From the NCBI GenBank assembly GCA_903875465.1, contig CAIQWB010000099.1, positions 124,001 through 188,000 of the forward strand: a stretch of DNA of 64,000 nt, in the 5' to 3' direction. Within the stretch, counting starts at the first letter, position 1. The number at the start of each line of letters is the position of its first letter. Shown here in pieces: positions 24,542-40,880 of this stretch. The notes under the pieces are model-generated. The model was not told the DNA's origin. It searched no databases and worked only from the letters and a program-made list of their open reading frames with translations. Source of the DNA: an uncultured Verrucomicrobia subdivision 3 bacterium. GTDB lineage: Bacteria > Verrucomicrobiota > Verrucomicrobiia > Limisphaerales > UBA11358. A program made the translations under genes and the position numbers.

Positions 24542-26950
24542 ATGACCGATGTGGCAGACATGGATTTGGTGCGGGAATTTGCCCGCCTCCATTCGGAGGC
24601 GGCGTTCACCGAACTGGTGCGGCGGCACCTCAACTTGGTGTATGCCATCGCCCGTCGCTGCACCGCGAGCGACAGCGACGCGCAAGATGTGGCCCAGGCT
24701 GTGTTTGTCATTCTCGCCCGCAAAGCTGCCGGACTGCGTCCCCGCACGGTGCTTACGGGCTGGCTGTATGAAACTACCCGCCACACCGCCGCATGTTGGC
24801 AACGTACCAATCTCCGCCGCCAGTGGCGCGAACAGGAGGCCTATCGGCAATCCACTTTGACCGAAACGGGCAATGCCGCAACGGACTGGCACCGCCTATG
24901 CCCGCATCTGGAGGCTGCCATGGCGGAACTGGGCGAAGGTGACCGCACCCTGCTGGCCCTGCGCTATTACGAAAATAAAAGCGCACGCGAATCTGCGGCG
25001 CTGTTGGGAATTCAGGAAGCCGCCGTCTACAAGCGCACCACCCGGGCGGTGGAAAAGCTGCGGAACCTATTCAACCGCCGGGGGGTGGCTCTTTCCGCAG
25101 TCGCCATCGCCGGGGCCATGTCCGCGCATGCCCGGCAGGCGGCGCCCGTGGGGTTGGCCCCCCAAATTTGCGGACTGGCGGCCCCCGGCGCGGTGCTCAC
25201 GGGGGTGACCACCAGTTTGGCCCAGGGAACGCTCAAGGCGCTGGCGTGGGCAAAATTCAAAACTTTGCTCAGCCTGTGGGCGGTTGCGACGCTGGCGGGA
25301 AGTGTGGTGGTAATGGCCGTATTAAACCTTCGGCCGCATAAAGCCATCCCTGCGGTCAGCAAGCCGATGGAAGTTCCGCGCGAGGTGATGACCGATACGG
25401 CTTTGATCTCCCTGGATTCACCGCCGGGCGGATTAGCCCTCCAGCCGGACGGGAAAATTGTCGTTGCCGCCAGTTTGTTCGGAAACTTCATTGATCCAGG
25501 GTCGGGCCGGCTCGGTTATTTTGAGCGCGGCGCCATCCGGCTGAATACCAATGGTTCGTTGGATCGCAGCTTTTACTGTAGTGGTGGATTTTCCGCGAAT
25601 GATTCCAGCCGTGCGCATGTCACTGCGCTGCCGGATGGAAAGCTCCTGCTGTCCGGTCTCTTCGATTCGGCGGAAGGCCGGCCGCGGCCTGGTTACGCGC
25701 GCTTCCTGGCCGATGGCAGTGTGGATGAATCGTTTGTGCCCACTGGATCCACCAATGCAGCGGGGCCGGTCTTGCAGCGGACATATCTGCCGGGTGGCAC
25801 TTACCCGGCGGCCGCTTTGAACGATGGCCTGGTGGCGGTAATGGCCAATCAGCCGCTGTCAGCATTTCGGCTGGATGCCGGTGGCCGCTTAATGCCGTCC
25901 GCCACCACTAATTCCGCCGGGACATTTCCGCCGCATGCGGGTTTGATCTGGACGCTTCAAGGCGCGGGTTTTTGGGGGAACTGGTGGGGGCATCAACCCG
26001 TGGACTGGAAACGCACGGCCCCCGCCCGCCGCCGGCCGCTCGTCAAGCCCTCCGGGCAATTACCATTTGAAGATTGTGCGGAGGCCCCTTCGGCCACTGA
26101 TGCCGCCCGGGTTTTCCAAGCACTTTTTGCCGAAGTGCCCTTCGCACTGTGCCGGGTGGCGGTGCCGTTGCCCGATGGCGGGGCGGTGCTGGGGATTCAA
26201 GACGAATTCATCAACGGCAGTATCGTGGCGCCCGGCCGGTTGATGCGCTTTGACCAAAACTGGCGGCCGGATTTCAGTTTCACCAACCGCTATGCAGCGG
26301 ACCTGCGGGGCAGCCTGACCATCAAGCGATTAAGGGACGGGAAGTTGCTGGTGGCGGGTGGCTTTACCACCATGAACGGAGCCGTTTTCCCCGGTTTGGT
26401 GCGCTTGTGGGCAAACGGCCAGATTGACCCCGGTTTTCATTGCCAGGTGGGCGAGGTGCAATTTGGGCGGCTGATCATGGACATGGCGGTGCAGGATGAC
26501 GGGCGGATTGTCATCTGCGGGCCATTTACCGTGGTCAACGGGGTCCACCGCCAGCATATCGCGCGGCTTAATCCGGATGGCTCGCTCGACGATACCTTTC
26601 AGAGTCCATTCCTGAGCCCGGTGGAGTTGCAAGCCAAGCGGCGCTTCCCCGTCTATCATCTAGCCAACAAAGCAACGTCCACGGCAACCAATCTGCCCGC
26701 CCCGCCAGCGGACCCGTTGCCCGCCGAAACGATTTGGATTACCTCGCTCAATTATCAAGGCGGCACCGCCGTGATTCAATTCACGGGCCATCCGAATACG
26801 ACCTATATTCTGCAAGCCCGAGATGGGCTGGCGGAGTCCAGCTGGAGCAACCTCAGCACCAACCGGGCCGATGCGGCCGGGAAGGGCGGCTTCCGTGATG
26901 GCACCGTGAAAAACCATCCAGCCCGTTTTTATCGGCTGGCCACGCCTTGA
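24542..26950 (+). CDS. ECF-type sigma factor fused through a membrane helix to delta-60-repeat propeller
   Basis: One 802-residue frame. Residues 1-85 are sigma region 2 (FTELVRRHLNLVYAIARRC, DAQDVAQAVFVILARKA) and about 115-170 are region 4 with a helix-turn-helix (SARESAALLGIQEAAVYKR). An Ala-rich linker leads to a hydrophobic helix at about 240-262. The remainder has at least five delta-60-type propeller repeats (LQPDGKIVVAAS, LPDGKLLLSG, DGKLLVAGGFTTMNG, QDDGRIVICGPFTVVNG) and a C-terminal secreted-protein-like module ending HPARFYRLATP. The layout implies a sigma domain held at the inner membrane by an outside sensor or binding domain, with release perhaps by proteolysis. No anti-sigma gene is adjacent. 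Domain identities are well supported; the regulatory model is inference. Confidence 0.88.
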   Translation: MTDVADMDLVREFARLHSEAAFTELVRRHLNLVYAIARRCTASDSDAQDVAQAVFVILARKAAGLRPRTVLTGWLYETTRHTAACWQRTNLRRQWREQEAYRQSTLTETGNAATDWHRLCPHLEAAMAELGEGDRTLLALRYYENKSARESAALLGIQEAAVYKRTTRAVEKLRNLFNRRGVALSAVAIAGAMSAHARQAAPVGLAPQICGLAAPGAVLTGVTTSLAQGTLKALAWAKFKTLLSLWAVATLAGSVVVMAVLNLRPHKAIPAVSKPMEVPREVMTDTALISLDSPPGGLALQPDGKIVVAASLFGNFIDPGSGRLGYFERGAIRLNTNGSLDRSFYCSGGFSANDSSRAHVTALPDGKLLLSGLFDSAEGRPRPGYARFLADGSVDESFVPTGSTNAAGPVLQRTYLPGGTYPAAALNDGLVAVMANQPLSAFRLDAGGRLMPSATTNSAGTFPPHAGLIWTLQGAGFWGNWWGHQPVDWKRTAPARRRPLVKPSGQLPFEDCAEAPSATDAARVFQALFAEVPFALCRVAVPLPDGGAVLGIQDEFINGSIVAPGRLMRFDQNWRPDFSFTNRYAADLRGSLTIKRLRDGKLLVAGGFTTMNGAVFPGLVRLWANGQIDPGFHCQVGEVQFGRLIMDMAVQDDGRIVICGPFTVVNGVHRQHIARLNPDGSLDDTFQSPFLSPVELQAKRRFPVYHLANKATSTATNLPAPPADPLPAETIWITSLNYQGGTAVIQFTGHPNTTYILQARDGLAESSWSNLSTNRADAAGKGGFRDGTVKNHPARFYRLATP

Positions 26951-33146: not shown

Positions 33147-34631
33147 ATGAAGACACCCCTCCTGGCCAAGGTTGTTGCGCTGGCCGCCGGACTGTGCGTC
33201 GTTTGGTTGCCGGGCGTGGCGCCGGCCAAAACCCCCGCGCTGCAATATCACTTCACCGTGGACGAGACGAATGTTTATGCGGTGGAGATTACCGTGCAAG
33301 GGGAAAATGGCCAGCAGGTCACGAGTGGCAACATTTTCATCGCGACCACGGAACTCAGTTCCAATGCGGCCACCCTAACCTGGCACAGCAACTTGCACAC
33401 GGAAAACCGCCAGCCCTTTCAGCCGGGCATGGGGTATTATGGTGGTCCCTACATGGGTCCCATGAATGGCTTTCCCCGGGCCGCACAAATCATGCTGGAT
33501 ACACATGGTCACGTGTTGCGTTCCAGCGGGGACTACAGCCTGACGGTGCCACTGGGCGAATTGGTGACCACCCTTTATCCGCCGTTGCCCCTCCAAACCG
33601 GCAAGGCGGAGGAGCTCAAGGATGAGGCGCTGGTCATGGACTCCCCCCAACTGTTGGGTCCCATTCAAGCCCCCCCGAGCCCATCCCCTTATGGCGGGGG
33701 TTTCTATATGGGCAATGAGTTCCGGAACCGGCCGGCCACTCTGGCGGTGGCCCGCGGGACCCGCTGGCAGATGGTGTCCAACACCCCGGCGGCGCTCACG
33801 CTGGAAAAGCACACCACGCTGACAAGTTTGCTGGGCCATGGCACCCAGCCACGCCTCAGCGCCCAGGCGGAAGCACGGCTGGAATTTAATCTAACTAGCG
33901 GCCGCTTCGAGAACCTGGCCGGCACCGCCGCGCTGGTTTCCGTCACCGAAACCACGTCGCGCCAGTCGCAAATCCACTTTAAATTTCGCCGGCTCAGCGG
34001 CGATGAACTGGCCGCCGCCCTGGTTCCCCCGCCACCGCCCGTGGTCAAACCTCTGACGGAGGCCGAAATACAGAAGCTGGTCGCGGACTTGAAAGCCGAC
34101 GACGATGCCACCCGGCGGGACGCGATGAGCCGGCTAAACGGGGCGACCGTGACCAACACGCCCGCGGAATTACTCAATCTGCTGGCCGGCGCCACGTCCG
34201 AAACAGACTCGTTTCCGCGCATGTGCGCCATGAATTTCCTGGCCGATCATGCGACCACCGAACAGGTGCCCACGCTGATTAAATTGCTCCGGGACTCGGA
34301 TGTGAGCATCCGTCAAAATGCCATCAAAGCCCTGACCCGGCTGCACGACGAGCGCGCCATCGAACCGCTGGCGGATCTAGTGGCGCGGGGCGGTTCATTT
34401 AACCAGGAGGCAGTCACCGCCCTGGGCAGTCAGGGGCCGGCGGCGGAAAAGGCCGTGCTCGCCCTCCTTAATGAACGGGCCACGGACACGCGGGAGCATG
34501 CCTGCGAAATTCTCCGTAAAATCGGGACCCGCGCCAGCCTGGATGCCCTGCAAAAGCTCATGGCCGATCCGGACCAATCCCTGAGCCAGGCGGCCGTGGA
34601 GGCGGTGCGGGCGATTAACGCCCGGCCGTAA
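33147..34631 (+). CDS. Exported HEAT-repeat protein
   Basis: ATG 33147 (MKTPLLAKVVALAAGLCVVW, cleavage near APA) gives 494 residues with a Sec signal peptide. An upstream ATG at 33117 is in frame but would put a Trp-rich segment before the signal. The first 330 residues look like beta-sheet-rich exported sequence with no family I recognise and a Gly/Tyr/Met/Pro-rich stretch near residues 90-110. From about residue 340 to 490 there are four to five HEAT/PBS-lyase-type helical repeats (LIKLLRDSDVSIRQNAIKAL, IEPLADLVARGG). It probably mediates protein contacts in the periplasm. It overlaps the convergent ligase gene by 17 bp. Confidence 0.72.
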   Translation: MKTPLLAKVVALAAGLCVVWLPGVAPAKTPALQYHFTVDETNVYAVEITVQGENGQQVTSGNIFIATTELSSNAATLTWHSNLHTENRQPFQPGMGYYGGPYMGPMNGFPRAAQIMLDTHGHVLRSSGDYSLTVPLGELVTTLYPPLPLQTGKAEELKDEALVMDSPQLLGPIQAPPSPSPYGGGFYMGNEFRNRPATLAVARGTRWQMVSNTPAALTLEKHTTLTSLLGHGTQPRLSAQAEARLEFNLTSGRFENLAGTAALVSVTETTSRQSQIHFKFRRLSGDELAAALVPPPPPVVKPLTEAEIQKLVADLKADDDATRRDAMSRLNGATVTNTPAELLNLLAGATSETDSFPRMCAMNFLADHATTEQVPTLIKLLRDSDVSIRQNAIKALTRLHDERAIEPLADLVARGGSFNQEAVTALGSQGPAAEKAVLALLNERATDTREHACEILRKIGTRASLDALQKLMADPDQSLSQAAVEAVRAINARP

Positions 34632-36021
34632 GGCGTTTTTTATCGGCCGCCACCCCTTCGCGGCGCATGACTTCAAGGCGGCCGCTGATGCCCATGATGA
34701 TCATCCACATCATCAAATTACGCGGCTGGACCAGCACCCGTTCGAGCGTGCTTTGCTCATAGTTAAGCGCGCACCCAAACATGATGCCCAGGGCCAGGCA
34801 TCTTCGAAAGCCATGGCCGAAATACCAGACGGCCCGGAAATTGCGATACAGGCCCACAAAGATTAGCAGCAGCCAGCTATTGAGACCCACATAACCGGTT
34901 TCCGCGAGCATCAGGTAATAATGGCTTTCCACCACGGAATTGAGGGCGGATTCATCCGGCTTCTGGCCCATGCCCCGGATCCAGTCATAGTAAATTTCGG
35001 CGTATCGAAAAGGCGGGTTCACCACCAAGGCATAGTTATTCCAGCCAATGCCCAGTGGATTGTCACTGACCATCGCCCGGCAGGCATTCTTCATGACTTC
35101 GCGCAATTCGCCGCTGGCCTGGTTGCCCTTGTCATTAAAGCGGGCAATGAGACTGTCCAGCGCGAGCGTGAGTCCGATGCCGCCCAAAATCGCCAGCGCG
35201 GAGGTGGTCAGTACCCGGCGCTTGGTGATTTTGTCCAGCAGGCTGGCACCCACCACCGCCACGGTGCCTGCGCCGAACATCACCAGGGCGCCCCGGGAGA
35301 GCGTGCATTCCACAATCACCCCGCAGAACATGAAGGCGAACATGATGAAATTCGACCATCTGAACACCGGCCCCAGACCGGTGGCCAGAAAGATCATGCC
35401 TAATAGCACGGAATACATCGCCAGCGGGTTTTGATGCTCAAAGGTGCCGTGCACCTGGTACGCCCCCTCCAGGTATTTCATTTTGAGACAGACAAACAGT
35501 TGCCAGGCCATGGTCACCGCCATCACCCGTACGAAGTGTTGGAAATCCTCATCCGTGCGCAGGGTGTTGAACGTGGCGATCATCAGCAACGAGGCGAAGA
35601 TGCTTTTGTGGGCGGCCATCAAGCCGTAATTGAGATTGGGCGCATGAATCAGCGAGAGCATGGACATGGCGCAGTAAAACAGGTAAAAGCCCATCCCCGG
35701 GGGGATCAGGCGGAACGATCGGGGATCCTCCCGCCACTTGGCCACAATCAGGGCGATGGCGAGGGCGTGGTTGAAATAAAAGTGATAACCCTTGGTGTGG
35801 CCCCGGTAGGTCTCAATGGAGGCCAGGGTGAGACCCCAATTGCCCGGCGCCAGCAAGCCGTTGATGGTCATGAAGCACATGATCCCAAAAACGGCGCGTT
35901 GCGCGCCCGGTTTGCCCTGGATCATAAAACCAATCAACGGGCCGAGAATAAAAAATATCGGTCCGATTCCCGCCAGTTTGATGTAGTCCAGGCTGGTCAA
36001 CCCCCGCAGCCTAAACCACAC
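34615..36021 (-). CDS. O-antigen ligase / Wzy-like polymerase family protein
   Basis: The 468-residue protein has about twelve transmembrane helices and a large loop of about 70 residues between helices near the end (NPLGIGWNNYALV, SHYYLMLAETGYVGLNSWLL). That loop with NPLGIGWNNY and H-Y-Y-L-M-L-A-E-T-G is the Wzy_C/WaaL signature. It polymerises lipid-linked repeat units or moves them to an acceptor in the periplasm. It diverges from the WecG-like, GT4 and Wzz-like genes, which together look like one exopolysaccharide locus. Confidence 0.85.
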   Translation of the reverse strand: MWFRLRGLTSLDYIKLAGIGPIFFILGPLIGFMIQGKPGAQRAVFGIMCFMTINGLLAPGNWGLTLASIETYRGHTKGYHFYFNHALAIALIVAKWREDPRSFRLIPPGMGFYLFYCAMSMLSLIHAPNLNYGLMAAHKSIFASLLMIATFNTLRTDEDFQHFVRVMAVTMAWQLFVCLKMKYLEGAYQVHGTFEHQNPLAMYSVLLGMIFLATGLGPVFRWSNFIMFAFMFCGVIVECTLSRGALVMFGAGTVAVVGASLLDKITKRRVLTTSALAILGGIGLTLALDSLIARFNDKGNQASGELREVMKNACRAMVSDNPLGIGWNNYALVVNPPFRYAEIYYDWIRGMGQKPDESALNSVVESHYYLMLAETGYVGLNSWLLLIFVGLYRNFRAVWYFGHGFRRCLALGIMFGCALNYEQSTLERVLVQPRNLMMWMIIMGISGRLEVMRREGVAADKKRLTAGR

Positions 36022-36143
36022 CGGGCGGGCAATAAAGCGGCAAGTGCGATTTTAGGGGCCGGAAAGTACCCCCCCCTCCCGGGCCATCGATCCGAACAAT
36101 ATTTTGCCACGGACTGGTGGTTTCCAGACTTGGTTTTTTCCGG

Positions 36144-37637
36144 ATGATGTGGTATTCCCTCCGGGTGGTGACGCCTGTTTCGCAAAAATTAGCAGTGAAT
36201 CGCCGTGATCCGATTGCCATCCTGGGGGTGCCATTCGACAATGTGACGACCCCGGAAACACTCGAGATCATTGCCGAAATGATTGCCTCGGGGCAGCCGC
36301 ATTGCGCGGCGACCGCCAACGTCGATTTTATTGTCCAGGCCCTCGAGGACGTGGAGTTGCGCCGCATCCTGTTCGACATGCACCTCATCCTGGCCGATGG
36401 CATGCCGATTGTTTGGGCTTCCAAGTTCCTCGGCAATCCCTTGCCGGAACGGGTGACCGGCTCTGGTTTGATTCCTTTGCTCCTGGCGGAGGCGGAAGCG
36501 CGCGGCTGGCGCGTGTTTTTTCTGGGCGGCACCAACGAAAGTGTGGCCGAGGCGGCGGCCAAAACACGCGCCAAACATCCGAATTTGCAACTGGTCGGGG
36601 CCTATTCGCCGCCCTTCAAACCGCTGCTGGAGATGGACCATGAGGACATTCTCCGGCGCATCCGCGAAGCCAGCCCGGATATTTTACTCGTGGCGTTTGG
36701 TTGTCCCAAGCAGGAGAAATGGATCAACATGCATTACCGGCAGTCCGGCGTGCCCTTCAGCGTGGGTGTGGGCGCCACCATTGACTTTCTGGCCGGCACC
36801 TTCAAGCGCGCCCCTCTCTGGATGCAGAAGACGGGCACGGAATGGATATTCCGGATGTTGCAGGAGCCCAAGCGGCTGATCAAACGCTACGGCAAGGATT
36901 TGTGGGTGTTCGGCCGGGTGATCTGGCAGCAATGGTGGCACTTGCGCCAGCGCAAGCAATCCGGCACCCCCGCCCCCCGGCCGGCGGTCAGCCCGGATTT
37001 GCCCGGCGTGGTGGTTATCAAATTGCCGCCCTCCCTGAGCGCCGCGGAGGTGCAGGCCCACCGCGCGGAATGGCTCCAGGCGGTGGAGCAGCACGATGTG
37101 ATCTTTGATCTGGCCGGCACCAAAATGACGGACAGCACCGGCGTGGGCCTGCTGATCCGTTTGCGCAAGCGCTCGCGGGAACTGGGCCGGACGATGGTGC
37201 TCGTCGCCGTCGGTCCGCAACTCCAGGGCGCGCTGGCCCTCATGAAACTGACCGATTTCTTTGCCCTCGAACCAGACCTCACCTCGGCGCGGGTGCGGGT
37301 GCAAAAAGAGATGGGTGGCGCCCAGTTGTCCGTCCGCAGTCTCAGCGACAACATGATCATCCGCTGGCAGGGTGAAATCACCTCGGAAACCACCTTGGAG
37401 CTGGCCCGGCGGACCGACGCGCAAATCAAGAAACTGAAGCCCGAGCAACGGGTGGTGATCGACCTGGCGGGCGTGGGTTTTGTGGACAGCACCGGGGTGG
37501 GCCTCATGGTCCGGCTGCGGAAAAGCTCCCTGCGGAGCGGGTTCAAACTCACCTTTGAGGCCCCGAATGAGAATGTGTTAAATGTACTGCGCCTGCTCAA
37601 AATTGAGGCGTTCCTGCTGCAACCTCCCTCCCCATGA
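36144..37637 (+). CDS. WecG/TagA/CpsF (GT26) glycosyltransferase fused to two STAS domains
   Basis: The start is uncertain: ATG 36144/36147, or a GTG at 36195 that would give the standard GT26 N-terminus. Residues about 25-250 form the WecG/TagA core (ILGVPFDNVTTPE, ANVDFIVQAL, LADGMPIVWASKFLG, GGTNESVAEAAA, FGCPKQEKWI, GATIDFLAGTFKRAP and the RMLQEPKRLIKRY tail). Two STAS domains follow at about 285-385 and 400-495, each with DSTGVGL and a hydrophobic helix with R-L-R-K. The enzyme should add ManNAc-type sugars to an undecaprenyl-linked acceptor. Tandem STAS domains suggest control through an anti-sigma-antagonist-like switch. The stop overlaps the GT4 gene start (ATGA). Confidence 0.85.
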   Translation: MMWYSLRVVTPVSQKLAVNRRDPIAILGVPFDNVTTPETLEIIAEMIASGQPHCAATANVDFIVQALEDVELRRILFDMHLILADGMPIVWASKFLGNPLPERVTGSGLIPLLLAEAEARGWRVFFLGGTNESVAEAAAKTRAKHPNLQLVGAYSPPFKPLLEMDHEDILRRIREASPDILLVAFGCPKQEKWINMHYRQSGVPFSVGVGATIDFLAGTFKRAPLWMQKTGTEWIFRMLQEPKRLIKRYGKDLWVFGRVIWQQWWHLRQRKQSGTPAPRPAVSPDLPGVVVIKLPPSLSAAEVQAHRAEWLQAVEQHDVIFDLAGTKMTDSTGVGLLIRLRKRSRELGRTMVLVAVGPQLQGALALMKLTDFFALEPDLTSARVRVQKEMGGAQLSVRSLSDNMIIRWQGEITSETTLELARRTDAQIKKLKPEQRVVIDLAGVGFVDSTGVGLMVRLRKSSLRSGFKLTFEAPNENVLNVLRLLKIEAFLLQPPSP

Positions 37638-38782
37638 AAATTGGCTTTTCCACCTCGGTGATTCAGCGCGGCAAAACCGGGGTGGCCCAGTATGTCTTTG
37701 CGTTGTTGCGCGCCCTGCTGCCCCATGCCCGGCAGCATCAGTTTTATTTGTTTGTGCTGGAGGAGGACCGCCCCCTGTTTGAATTCGCCCGGGCCGCCAT
37801 GCAGATCGTGGGGGTGCCGGAACAATTCCGGCCGGCCGGTCGGAATGTGCTCTGGCACCAGACCCACCTGCCGGGCCTGGTCCGTTCCCTGGGGCTGGAC
37901 GTTCTCCATGTGCCGAGTTACCGCCGGCTGCTCTGGCGCAAGCCGTGCGCGCTCGTCGCCACCATCCACGATCTCGCGCCGTTTCACATCACCGGCAAGT
38001 ATGACTGGAAGCGCATGATATACGGCCGGGTGATCGTCAAGCGCCTGGCCGCGCGCCAGGATGAAATCATCGCGGTGAGCGAAAACACCGCCCGGGACCT
38101 CGGCACCTATTTTGGCCGGGGCCGGGACTACGTCTCGGTCGTGTGGAATGGCATCGATCACCAGCGCTTTCAGCCCGGGGATGCCGTCGCCGCCAAGGCG
38201 GAGGCCGCCCGGCGCTGGCAACTGGACCGGCCCTTTTTTCTGTACGTCTCGCGGCTGGAACATCCGGGCAAAAACCATGTGCGGCTGATCGAGGCGTTTA
38301 ACCGTTTCAAGGCGGCCACCGGGTTGGACTGGCTGCTGGCCTTTGGCGGCAGTGACTGGCACGGGGCGGAGGCCATTCATGCGGCGGCCCAGGCCTCGCC
38401 CTATGCGGCGGACATCCGGGCGCTGGGCTTCGTGGATGACCCCAGTTTGCCTTTGCTGTACCGGGCCACGGATGTCTTTGTATATCCCTCGCTGTTTGAG
38501 GGGTTTGGCTTTCCGCCGATTGAGGCGATGGCCTGCGGTTGTCCCGTCATCAGCAGCACGCGGGGCTCGCTGCGGGAAGTGGTGGCCGACGCCGCGCTCA
38601 CCATTGATCCGGAAAATATTGCCGAACTGGCCGCCGCCCTCACCCGTTTGGCCACCGACGGCACCGCGCGTGACACCTGGCGCGCCGCCGGCTTTCGCAA
38701 CGCCCGGCGGTTTGACTGGGCGCAAAATGCCGGGCAGACACTGGCGCTCTATGAACGCGCGGTAAAACGCAGAAAAAGCTGA
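37634..38782 (+). CDS. Glycosyltransferase family 4
   Basis: The 382-residue GT-B enzyme starts in an ATGA overlap with the WecG-STAS gene. The N-terminal domain carries GVAQYVFALL, and the linker has SVVWNGIDHQRF. The C-terminal nucleotide-sugar domain has FLYVSRLEHPGKNHVRLIEA and the E-x7-E motif in LFEGFGFPPIEAMACGCPV. It probably extends the lipid-linked polysaccharide started by the neighbouring WecG-type enzyme. The sugar specificity cannot be read. Confidence 0.92.
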   Translation: MKIGFSTSVIQRGKTGVAQYVFALLRALLPHARQHQFYLFVLEEDRPLFEFARAAMQIVGVPEQFRPAGRNVLWHQTHLPGLVRSLGLDVLHVPSYRRLLWRKPCALVATIHDLAPFHITGKYDWKRMIYGRVIVKRLAARQDEIIAVSENTARDLGTYFGRGRDYVSVVWNGIDHQRFQPGDAVAAKAEAARRWQLDRPFFLYVSRLEHPGKNHVRLIEAFNRFKAATGLDWLLAFGGSDWHGAEAIHAAAQASPYAADIRALGFVDDPSLPLLYRATDVFVYPSLFEGFGFPPIEAMACGCPVISSTRGSLREVVADAALTIDPENIAELAAALTRLATDGTARDTWRAAGFRNARRFDWAQNAGQTLALYERAVKRRKS

Positions 38783-38813
38783 CCGGCCGGCCGGCGCGTG
38801 GTAATTTGACGTG

Positions 38814-40880
38814 ATGGACTCCTCAAAAACGAATGCAACCTCACCGGGCGGCGCCGCGGACGCGGTTCCGGCGGCGGCGGCGGCCCCGGCTGCCGAGGCG
38901 GGGGTGAGCCTGCCCTTTGACCCGGTGCGCCTCATCGCCGCGCTGATTCGCGGTTGGTATTGGCTGTTGATCAGTGGGGTGCTGATGGGGGGGGGCCTGT
39001 TCGCGTTGGGATATTACAAGCTGGAAACCAGCTACTCCGTCCAGGTGGAACTCATCCGCCGCGAGGCCAACACCATCATACGTGCCTCCGTGCTCGGCGA
39101 CGCCTTCAAGCCCCATCAGGTCACCGTGCAAACCATTGTCAATGTCATGCAGTCGCCCAAATTGCTGGACCGGGTCGGCAGCATGGCCACGCCGCCCATC
39201 AGCGGGATGGCGCTCGGCAAGCTCCTGACCATCAAACCCGAAAAGGAAACCGACCTGATTTCCGTCACCTTAAAATCCAAGCTCGGGGTCCAGGGCACGG
39301 CCAATTTGGTGAATCTCTATGCCCGCGAAGTGGTGGCGCTCACCGCCCAGATGCAGTCCGACGAGGCAGCGGAACTGGACAAGTTTTTACGCGAGCAAAT
39401 CTCCAAGATTGACGGCACCCTGGATGACATTAACAAGGAGTTGCTGGAGTTCAGCAAGGAAAGCGAGTTTTATGGGAATGACCGCGAACTGGAGGCCTAT
39501 CTGCGCGAATCTGGCGAAACCGAAATGCAGATTGAAACCGCCAAGACCCAGTTGGAAACCGTGGAGTTTCGCATCGGCAGTGTGGAGCGCGAACTCGCCT
39601 CCCAGGATCCGCAAGCCATTCAACTCAACCTGGCCCGCGCCCAGTTGAAGACCTTGAAAGCGGCCTATGCGGAGACCAGCCCCCTGGTCAAGAGCGCGGC
39701 CGACCATGTGGCGGCCGTGGAACAGCAGATCGCCGCCAGTGGCGGTTTGAAAACCAATTTTGACAGCAATTTTCAGTACAGCGAAAACACCATGGCCAAC
39801 GATTTGTACATGCAACTCGTTTCGCTGCGCGGCCAGCAGGAGGGGTTGATCAAGCAAATGGCGCAGTTAAAGACGTTCTTTACCAACACTCAGGAAAAAC
39901 TCCGGGGCGTGCCTGCCAAAACGCAGCATCAAGCGGCCATTGTGGCCCGGCAGCAATCCTTGCAGGCCACCCGCGACCTGTTCAGCGGCCGCCAGCATGA
40001 GGCCCAGATGTACGAGGAAAACTCCCCGGGTCTGTACCGCCTGTTTGCGCCCGCCTCGGAAGATAGCGTGGAGGTGAGCAACCGCACGGTGAAGATGATC
40101 CTGGCCGCCGTGGTCGGGGTGGTGCTGGGCTTGGTGCTGGCCACCGGAGTGGTGCTGGGCCGTGAATTACTCGATTTGCGGGTGATTTCCGCCGGAGATT
40201 TGCGCCGGTCCACCGGCGTGCCCATCCTCGCCCGCCTGCCGGTGCTCAGCACCCTGTCCGAGGTGCAACTCGCCCAGTGGCGCTTTCGCACCTGGGCGCA
40301 ACTCGTGCGGAAACTCAAGCTGCAAAATGCCACCCGCCTCACCCTGGCGTTTACTTCCACCCAGCCGGGCGAGGGCAAATCCACCTTTATTAAGGAGTTG
40401 CACATCGCCGCCCTGGACCGGCGCTTCCCGGTGGTGCTGGTGACCAACGCCCCTCCTGGGGTGGGCAAAGTTCGCTGCGTGCCCCTTGTTGAAGCCCTGA
40501 ACCGGCCCGAGCTCATCCTGGAGCATGTGAACAGCAGCCCGGACGTGGTAGTGCAATTAAATTTTGAAAGTGACTGGAAATGGACCCTCGAAAACCGCAA
40601 TCGCTGGTCCCGGGCCAATCTGGTCTGGCAGCAATTGCCCTCCCTCGCGCTGTTTGTGGAACTGCCGCCCATGGTGGATCTGGACGCGGTGCTCACCGCC
40701 GAACTCATGCCCATGACCCTGTGGGTGACCACCAGCGGCCGGTTGGAACAACGGGAACTGGCCGAGGCCCTGGAATTGGTCGAGGCCGGTGAGGTTCACT
40801 TGGTGGGCGCGGCGCTGGACTACGAATCGCCCGCCCTGGCGCGACTGTCCTTTTTGGGCAAGCTGGGCCTCCCGGTTTAA
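38814..40880 (+). CDS. Wzz/GumC-like polysaccharide co-polymerase with degenerate BY-kinase-like domain
   Basis: ATG 38814, one codon after an in-frame GTG, gives 688 residues. An Ala/Pro-rich head is followed by a first transmembrane helix (about 42-64) and a Wzz domain. A periplasmic coiled coil extends to about residue 410, and a second helix lies near 425-450 (KMILAAVVGVVLGLVLATGV). The cytoplasmic part (about 480-688) has a P-loop, STQPGEGKSTF. Unlike active bacterial tyrosine kinases, the Walker A' aspartates are missing (TNAPPGVGK follows instead), and no C-terminal tyrosine cluster exists. It should set chain length for the polysaccharide made by this locus, with the kinase part perhaps only a nucleotide-sensing adaptor. 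Confidence 0.88.
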   Translation: MDSSKTNATSPGGAADAVPAAAAAPAAEAGVSLPFDPVRLIAALIRGWYWLLISGVLMGGGLFALGYYKLETSYSVQVELIRREANTIIRASVLGDAFKPHQVTVQTIVNVMQSPKLLDRVGSMATPPISGMALGKLLTIKPEKETDLISVTLKSKLGVQGTANLVNLYAREVVALTAQMQSDEAAELDKFLREQISKIDGTLDDINKELLEFSKESEFYGNDRELEAYLRESGETEMQIETAKTQLETVEFRIGSVERELASQDPQAIQLNLARAQLKTLKAAYAETSPLVKSAADHVAAVEQQIAASGGLKTNFDSNFQYSENTMANDLYMQLVSLRGQQEGLIKQMAQLKTFFTNTQEKLRGVPAKTQHQAAIVARQQSLQATRDLFSGRQHEAQMYEENSPGLYRLFAPASEDSVEVSNRTVKMILAAVVGVVLGLVLATGVVLGRELLDLRVISAGDLRRSTGVPILARLPVLSTLSEVQLAQWRFRTWAQLVRKLKLQNATRLTLAFTSTQPGEGKSTFIKELHIAALDRRFPVVLVTNAPPGVGKVRCVPLVEALNRPELILEHVNSSPDVVVQLNFESDWKWTLENRNRWSRANLVWQQLPSLALFVELPPMVDLDAVLTAELMPMTLWVTTSGRLEQRELAEALELVEAGEVHLVGAALDYESPALARLSFLGKLGLPV

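Follow-up and report, generated by a model that had tools for sequence, protein, structure and literature searches.

A family of GT26 glycosyltransferases carrying two STAS domains in Verrucomicrobiota and its possible control by a partner-switching module

Introduction

The RsbU-RsbV-RsbW and SpoIIE-SpoIIAA-SpoIIAB systems of Bacillus are built from the same three domain types and use the same acceptor motif as the system described here, and the structures of RsbV and SpoIIAA match its STAS domains, but their output is a sigma factor, whereas no sigma factor was seen among the genes of the cassettes annotated in this study, in which kinase and phosphatase are moreover one polypeptide. Closer in setting is the SypA/SypE system of Vibrio fischeri, a partner switch with HATPase-type serine kinase and phosphatase that is likewise situated in a polysaccharide locus; Ser56 of the STAS protein SypA is the acceptor and SypA is the downstream output (PMC10120452, PMC8256260). 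Several polysaccharide loci, among them those of SypA and HmpV, are under the control of STAS partner switches with a final target that is not known (PMC10120452, PMC8256260), and SypA is a separate STAS protein, while the STAS domains described here are part of a glycosyltransferase. In the HsbR/HsbA/HsbD system of Pseudomonas aeruginosa a receiver fed by Hpt governs a PP2C/kinase protein, and HsbA, the STAS protein, in its phosphorylated form binds to a diguanylate cyclase, whose output it promotes (PMC6482189), indicating that a STAS switch can have an enzyme as target; this enzyme is bound in trans, in contrast to the glycosyltransferase considered here, which is present in cis. Finally, Anabaena all4160 is reported as a glycosyltransferase with a STAS domain (PMC8256260) and is involved in the formation of heterocyst envelope polysaccharide (PMC4390870), but its STAS domain is described as single and N-terminal, whereas the fusion of this study has two at its C-terminus.

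On the enzyme side the closest described protein is TagA/TarA of T. italicus, the founding member of the GT26 family, which has the same fold, the same Thr37/Asp65 pair and the same appendage arginines as the fusion. Thr37, Asp65 and Arg221 of TagA are important for activity, and both catalysis and membrane binding require the C-terminal appendage, through which TagA is reported to toggle between soluble, inactive dimers and monomers that are membrane-bound and active (PMC6493773). The TagA chains matched in our comparison are without STAS domains, whereas in the fusion these follow directly after the appendage. Partner switches in polysaccharide loci (Syp, Hmp) and one STAS-glycosyltransferase (all4160) are already on record; a literature search, with most subscription papers outside its scope, found no description of a GT26-STAS-STAS protein, of its linkage to a kinase/phosphatase cassette, of a catalytically dead offshoot or of a WecG with a STAS domain, and co-mentions of TagA and STAS domain were unrelated by title.

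Architecture of the fusion protein

The window, i.e. the whole stretch of 64,000 nucleotides analysed here, had been read from the sequence alone as encoding an intact GT26 core followed by two STAS modules. Pfam, an AlphaFold2 model and matches to PDB structures agree with this order and confirm that the GT26-STAS-STAS architecture and the coordinates of its gene are real. The gene and the parts of its product are:

36144..37637, forward strand: GT26-STAS-STAS coding sequence (P0001), 497 residues; an open, coding reading frame (Pfam, AlphaFold2)
36204..36797, forward strand: GT26 core, residues 21-218, holding T57, D85, R103 and Q190 (PDB alignment, VIA-align to TagA)
36798..36944, forward strand: C-terminal GT26 appendage, residues 219-267, with R237 and R244 (AlphaFold2 model, PDB alignment)
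36984..37313, forward strand: STAS domain 1, residues 281-390, predicted phospho-acceptor S331 at 37134-37136
37323..37625, forward strand: STAS domain 2, residues 394-494, predicted phospho-acceptor S449 at 37488-37490

The reading frame has an alternative start (GTG at 36117). In the 497-residue protein Pfam places PF03808 (WecG/TagA) at residues 80-249 (9e-63) and, at best placement, STAS stretches at residues 292-369 (PF13466) and 397-490 (PF01740, 2.4e-27). The AlphaFold2 model, calculated from an alignment of 60 relatives, is confident along the whole length (mean pLDDT 93.5, pTM 0.92). Both C-terminal segments are predicted as STAS domains in agreement with the structural matches, and Pfam, model and PDB matches together rule out a chance resemblance of these segments to STAS. 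Nor is the architecture itself a product of chance, since dozens of genomes have it.

Alignment of residues 21-220 with TagA (VIA-align) yields a Z-score of 23.4 and an rmsd of 1.3 over 197 residues at 32% identity, and in the alignment to 7mpk T57, D85, R103, Q190, R237 and R244 coincide with TagA Thr37, Asp65, Arg83, Gln167, Arg214 and Arg221. The protein thus has the profile of the GT26 family, the TagA fold and, according to alignment and family conservation, the counterparts of Thr37, Asp65 and Arg221 (T57, D85, R244). Judged by its sequence it keeps every GT26 residue checked and the catalytic part is intact; it is best read as a GT26 enzyme, a lipid-linked exopolysaccharide glycosyltransferase with predicted sugar transfer activity. 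The donor sugar is not assignable, since the fusion misses the NCBIfam equivalog cut-offs of TarA (136.8 of 350 bits) and EpsA (182.2 of 500 bits). The appendage ends as a long Trp/Arg-rich helix that runs into the STAS domains. As it leads straight into STAS1, the STAS domains are joined to the element that controls, in TagA, the change between dimer and monomer; by analogy this attachment may serve as a mechanistic lead, not as a result.

STAS domains and acceptor serines

Residues 276-389 (STAS1) match SpoIIAA and other STAS antagonists with Z-scores of about 12-13, and residues 392-494 (STAS2) match TM1442 (Z 15.5) and RsbV (Z 14.5) in VIA-align, the best matches of both folds including phospho-regulated antagonists. 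The motif DSTGVGL, already noticed in each module in the sequence-only reading, is present in both and stands at the N-terminus of a helix (H331-346 and H449-465 in the AlphaFold2 model), as in SpoIIAA. Each domain thus combines a STAS fold with a serine that follows an invariant Asp at a helix start (S331, S449), as is characteristic of the anti-sigma-antagonist type. Throughout the family the acceptor is Ser in 78 of 81 STAS1 and 70 of 74 STAS2 domains, with Thr in 3 more STAS2 domains, and the residues of DSxG are the most conserved of each domain, while the remaining STAS sequence diverges to about 39% mean identity. The two copies, described earlier as alike though not identical, share 29% identity in the window protein and 23.5% on average within one protein across the family. 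STAS1 forms a group of its own (support 0.99), as do the STAS proteins of the cassette described below, and the separate grouping of STAS1 and STAS2 together with their low mutual identity indicates that the two positions are old and distinct, which would allow different binding partners.

What could be the function of two such domains on a glycosyltransferase? In our view the protein probably comprises the output arm of a partner switch, fused to the exopolysaccharide glycosyltransferase that it would control. A different role would be docking. STAS domains are subunits of other complexes, as is MlaB in MlaFEDB (PMC7367683), and MlaB chains are found among the close structural matches of STAS2, so that the STAS domains might anchor the glycosyltransferase in a complex for biosynthesis, much as MlaB holds the MlaF ATPase, with the DSxG loop as an unphosphorylated binding surface. 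The retention of Ser, rarely Thr, in domains that otherwise diverge, the linkage to a kinase/phosphatase module and the score in the NCBIfam MlaB model (48.2 at a cut-off of 90 bits), by which membership in the MlaB family was rejected, make such a docking role unlikely.

Other STAS proteins of the same genome, a SulP-like transporter, a glutaminase-like-STAS-cNMP-like protein and a 171-aa STAS protein, look unrelated by sequence. The second of these (L058:919-2781, reverse strand, contig C32) is another enzyme-STAS fusion, in which the glutaminase-like and the cyclic-nucleotide-binding-like regions on either side of the STAS domain were judged from sequence.

Gene cluster and distribution of the family

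The fusion gene lies in an exopolysaccharide gene cluster with the following neighbours:

34615..36021, reverse strand: O-antigen ligase/Wzy-type polymerase (Pfam PF04932), divergent neighbour
37634..38782, forward strand: GT4 glycosyltransferase, in a 4-base overlap with the preceding fusion gene; downstream in most relatives
38811..40880, forward strand: chain-length determinant (Wzz/XrtA type) with Wzc-like C-terminal half (TIGR03007); position conserved

The PF04932 polymerase gene is kept beside the fusion in L092, L100, L103, L108, L149 and other loci. The 4-base overlap between the fusion stop and the GT4 gene probably leads to joint translation, and the product of 38811..40880 matches NCBIfam TIGR03007 with 6.8e-19, which is below the family cut-off. 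Elsewhere in the window (24542-26950, forward strand) a protein of 802 aa is encoded in which N-terminal ECF-type sigma-70 regions 2 and 4 are followed by DUF5122 beta-propeller repeats.

About 48 of 196 genomes of the order contain an orthologue with STAS, or a high-identity fragment of one at a contig end, and forms with one and with two STAS domains are present in other classes of the phylum; one orthologue, in G170, is a GT26 without any STAS domain, and this genome is also without the cassette. The best 80 loci in a scan of GTDB contigs, a selection that says nothing on absence outside the phylum, are recorded as Verrucomicrobia(ota), Limisphaerales, Opitutaceae, Akkermansia and the like, or as bacteria without taxon name. 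The idea that the fusion is unique to its source organism was therefore rejected: GT26-STAS and GT26-STAS-STAS recur across order and phylum, and GT26-STAS-STAS is a conserved family rather than a one-off.

The sole candidate outside the phylum among the matches listed is a GT26 protein encoded on a plasmid of Pelagibacterium sp. H642 (L274:11977-13068, forward strand) in a glycosyltransferase cluster. Its C-terminal stretch resembles STAS_2 (E 0.001, under the Pfam cut-off) and it is possibly an independent fusion in Alphaproteobacteria. The other plasmid GT26 matches listed end near the GT26 boundary.

A kinase/phosphatase cassette in the same genome

A SpoIIAB/RsbW-like partner kinase, on which the idea of control by partner switching depends, is indeed encoded elsewhere in the genome. 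A single strong RsbW-type protein was found (HATPase_c_2, 4.5e-24; next best 1e-8), a HATPase-GAF-SpoIIE protein of 610 residues encoded on contig C3. Two STAS genes (STASa/STASb) precede its gene and a response regulator gene follows it; also before it are an NTase/hexapeptide/partial-Bac_transf gene, the gene of a Bac_transf priming enzyme (sugar-phosphate transferase) and a PRK-like gene, a gene order that is found again in other genomes of the order Limisphaerales. The cassette thus comprises what makes up a RsbUVW-type module, a HATPase_c_2 domain with N-box Glu/Asn, a PP2C domain with metal-binding Asp and a STAS antagonist. The 48 aligned HATPase-GAF-SpoIIE sequences show no variation in N-box Glu/Asn, G1 Asp, GRG and the PP2C Asp residues, and activity is therefore expected of both halves of the enzyme.

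The possibility that C3 is a contaminant was rejected by tetranucleotide use: its correlation with the window is 0.93-0.96, equal to that of window chunks among themselves, while other genomes reach 0.43-0.89. Two further features of C3 deserve mention. Between the priming enzyme gene and a STAS gene lies a conserved cassette gene (L089:3244-4503, reverse strand), the product of which has hexapeptide repeats and a Bac_transf domain of which just the C-terminal half is present. In addition, the contig carries what looks by sequence like an IS21-like istA/istB pair (L089:11816-14115, reverse strand); as the cassette is located near the fusion in several close relatives, this pair suggests that the cassette may have moved in the window's genome.

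Association of cassette and fusion

Does the cassette belong to the fusion? Across the order a long match to the cassette HATPase protein was found in 36 of 48 genomes with the fusion as compared to 14 of 148 without it (p 7e-18 in a Fisher test that treats related genomes as independent and takes no account of genome size), and the same co-occurrence is seen when families are counted (21/5/5/31, p 1e-7). Moreover, the HATPase protein is present in 19 of 20 further genomes holding the fusion, and in the window's own genus, represented by 9 genomes, 2 have both and 7 have neither. Orthologues that had lost STAS domain(s) or acceptor are more frequent without the cassette (4/11) than with it (2/33), a post hoc comparison with p 0.03.

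Physical linkage is evidence independent of co-occurrence. Fusion and cassette reside on the same contig in G101, G068, G169, G173 and G172, and under a uniform 5-Mb model proximity within 30 kb in 5 of 36 cases has a chance of 7e-5. Genome G335, a single contig, has its genes for GT26-STAS-STAS, STAS, HATPase-GAF-SpoIIE and REC within 4.4 kb; in L156 STAS, HATPase-GAF-SpoIIE and REC are directly followed by an intact fusion; and in L244-L247 SpoIIE, STAS, Bac_transf and REC genes are found within about 8 kb of it.

These data also bear on the most conservative explanation, according to which the protein is an ordinary exopolysaccharide glycosyltransferase with inert add-ons and the kinase module a general stress regulator that travels with large polysaccharide clusters. 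The distribution of both partners is patchy, and the two could occur together in large genomes with large clusters, but the conservation of two-STAS architecture and serines over a phylum, the direct adjacency in several lineages and the one genome in which only fusion, STAS, HATPase-SpoIIE and REC stand together render this explanation very improbable. Control of the fusion by the cassette, the reading we prefer, has its own difficulties. In the window's genome the cassette is unlinked to the fusion gene, 12 of the 48 fusion genomes are without a full-length cassette protein and 14 genomes have the cassette protein without the fusion; furthermore, the cassette's own STAS proteins could be its real substrates.

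A catalytically dead offshoot that keeps both STAS serines

A further difficulty is posed by 11 loci that form one clade (GT26-core support 1.0; L177, L181, L184, L187, L188, L189, L193, L195, L200, L204, L205). In this offshoot Glu or Gly replaces D85 in the loci that have the segment, R103 is missing, and a deletion has removed the appendage with most of its arginines, while DSTG is kept in both STAS domains. Mean identity within the offshoot is 73-74% for STAS and 70% for the GT26 core, opposite to the pattern among the window's nearest relatives, where STAS domains share 55% and GT26 cores 84%. In five of the 11 loci (L177, L181, L184, L188, L189) the gene order is HATPase-GAF-SpoIIE, REC, pseudo-GT26-STAS-STAS, and in L193, which belongs to the window's genus, and L204, at a contig end, REC precedes the pseudo-GT26 gene. 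Most offshoot genomes have no intact fusion and keep an ordinary GT26. Upstream of the switch genes a MASE1-PAS-HisKA-HATPase-REC-Hpt hybrid sensor kinase is encoded in L188 (3633-6956) and L193 (6095-9412), suggesting a likely phosphorelay input into the stand-alone REC.

Conservation of STAS and DSTG in proteins that lack catalytic residues suggests that STAS-STAS appears to have a selected role without catalysis, and the offshoot shows that a fusion-type protein can also be kept for regulation alone. Here a switch is kept that has no enzyme to control, and information could thus flow from GT26 to the switch and not in the reverse direction: GT26 would be a sensor of lipid-linked or nucleotide sugar, and the STAS arms would titrate the HATPase kinase or displace STASa/STASb, by which the switch would learn about precursor availability and act on another target. 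The loss of catalytic Asp, Arg103 and appendage next to a twice conserved DSTG, the position of seven offshoot genes behind HATPase-SpoIIE and REC or behind REC, STAS domains no less conserved than the GT26 core and the scarcity of intact fusions in these genomes all favor such a sensor. We nevertheless regard it as rather unlikely for the window protein, as the GT26 residues checked are intact, the gene is set in an exopolysaccharide cluster and most members of the family have retained catalysis; the offshoot may also represent a later change of role.

A model for control of the glycosyltransferase

Partner-switch control of the glycosyltransferase, the reading we consider probable, is based on domain make-up, intact catalytic and acceptor residues, the presence of a partner module, co-occurrence and gene linkage. 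From these we infer phosphorylation of S331 and S449, an effect of it on the enzyme, the sign of this effect and the sugar transferred. In the model a sensor phosphorelay would act on the stand-alone REC and this on the HATPase-GAF-SpoIIE protein, which as kinase and PP2C phosphatase in one would phosphorylate and dephosphorylate S331 and S449 of the fusion and also STASa/STASb of the cassette. The phosphorylation state would alter binding by the STAS domains and thereby turn the attached GT26 on or off, most plausibly through altered membrane docking of GT26, its oligomeric state or its assembly with the priming sugar-phosphate transferase.

On a primed lipid, the sugar attached by GT26 enzymes is normally the second one. 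The sequence-only reading had proposed that partner switching controls the initiation of exopolysaccharide synthesis; acceptor serines, co-occurrence and adjacency support a switch acting on the fusion, but since GT26 carries out the second-sugar step, initiation is better placed at the priming enzyme of the cassette, its sugar-phosphate transferase. More tentatively, and with somewhat less than even confidence, the system may be viewed as a self-contained polysaccharide partner switch, in which the antagonist arm is covalently part of a lipid-linked glycosyltransferase, no sigma factor or transcription step would be needed, and from which a signalling lineage of pseudo-glycosyltransferases with dead GT26 and live STAS-STAS would have descended.

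Implications

A natural STAS-glycosyltransferase fusion, with kinase and phosphatase adjoining in some genomes, points to a specific type of target for STAS switches in polysaccharide loci, and the question can be tested with two or three purified proteins. The dead offshoot constitutes a natural experiment that separates enzyme from switch. If control of the fusion by the cassette is true, glycosyltransferases would by analogy be candidate targets also of the unfused switches SypA and HmpV, and it would suggest that exopolysaccharide assembly in these bacteria is controlled post-translationally, at the enzyme rather than only via gene expression.
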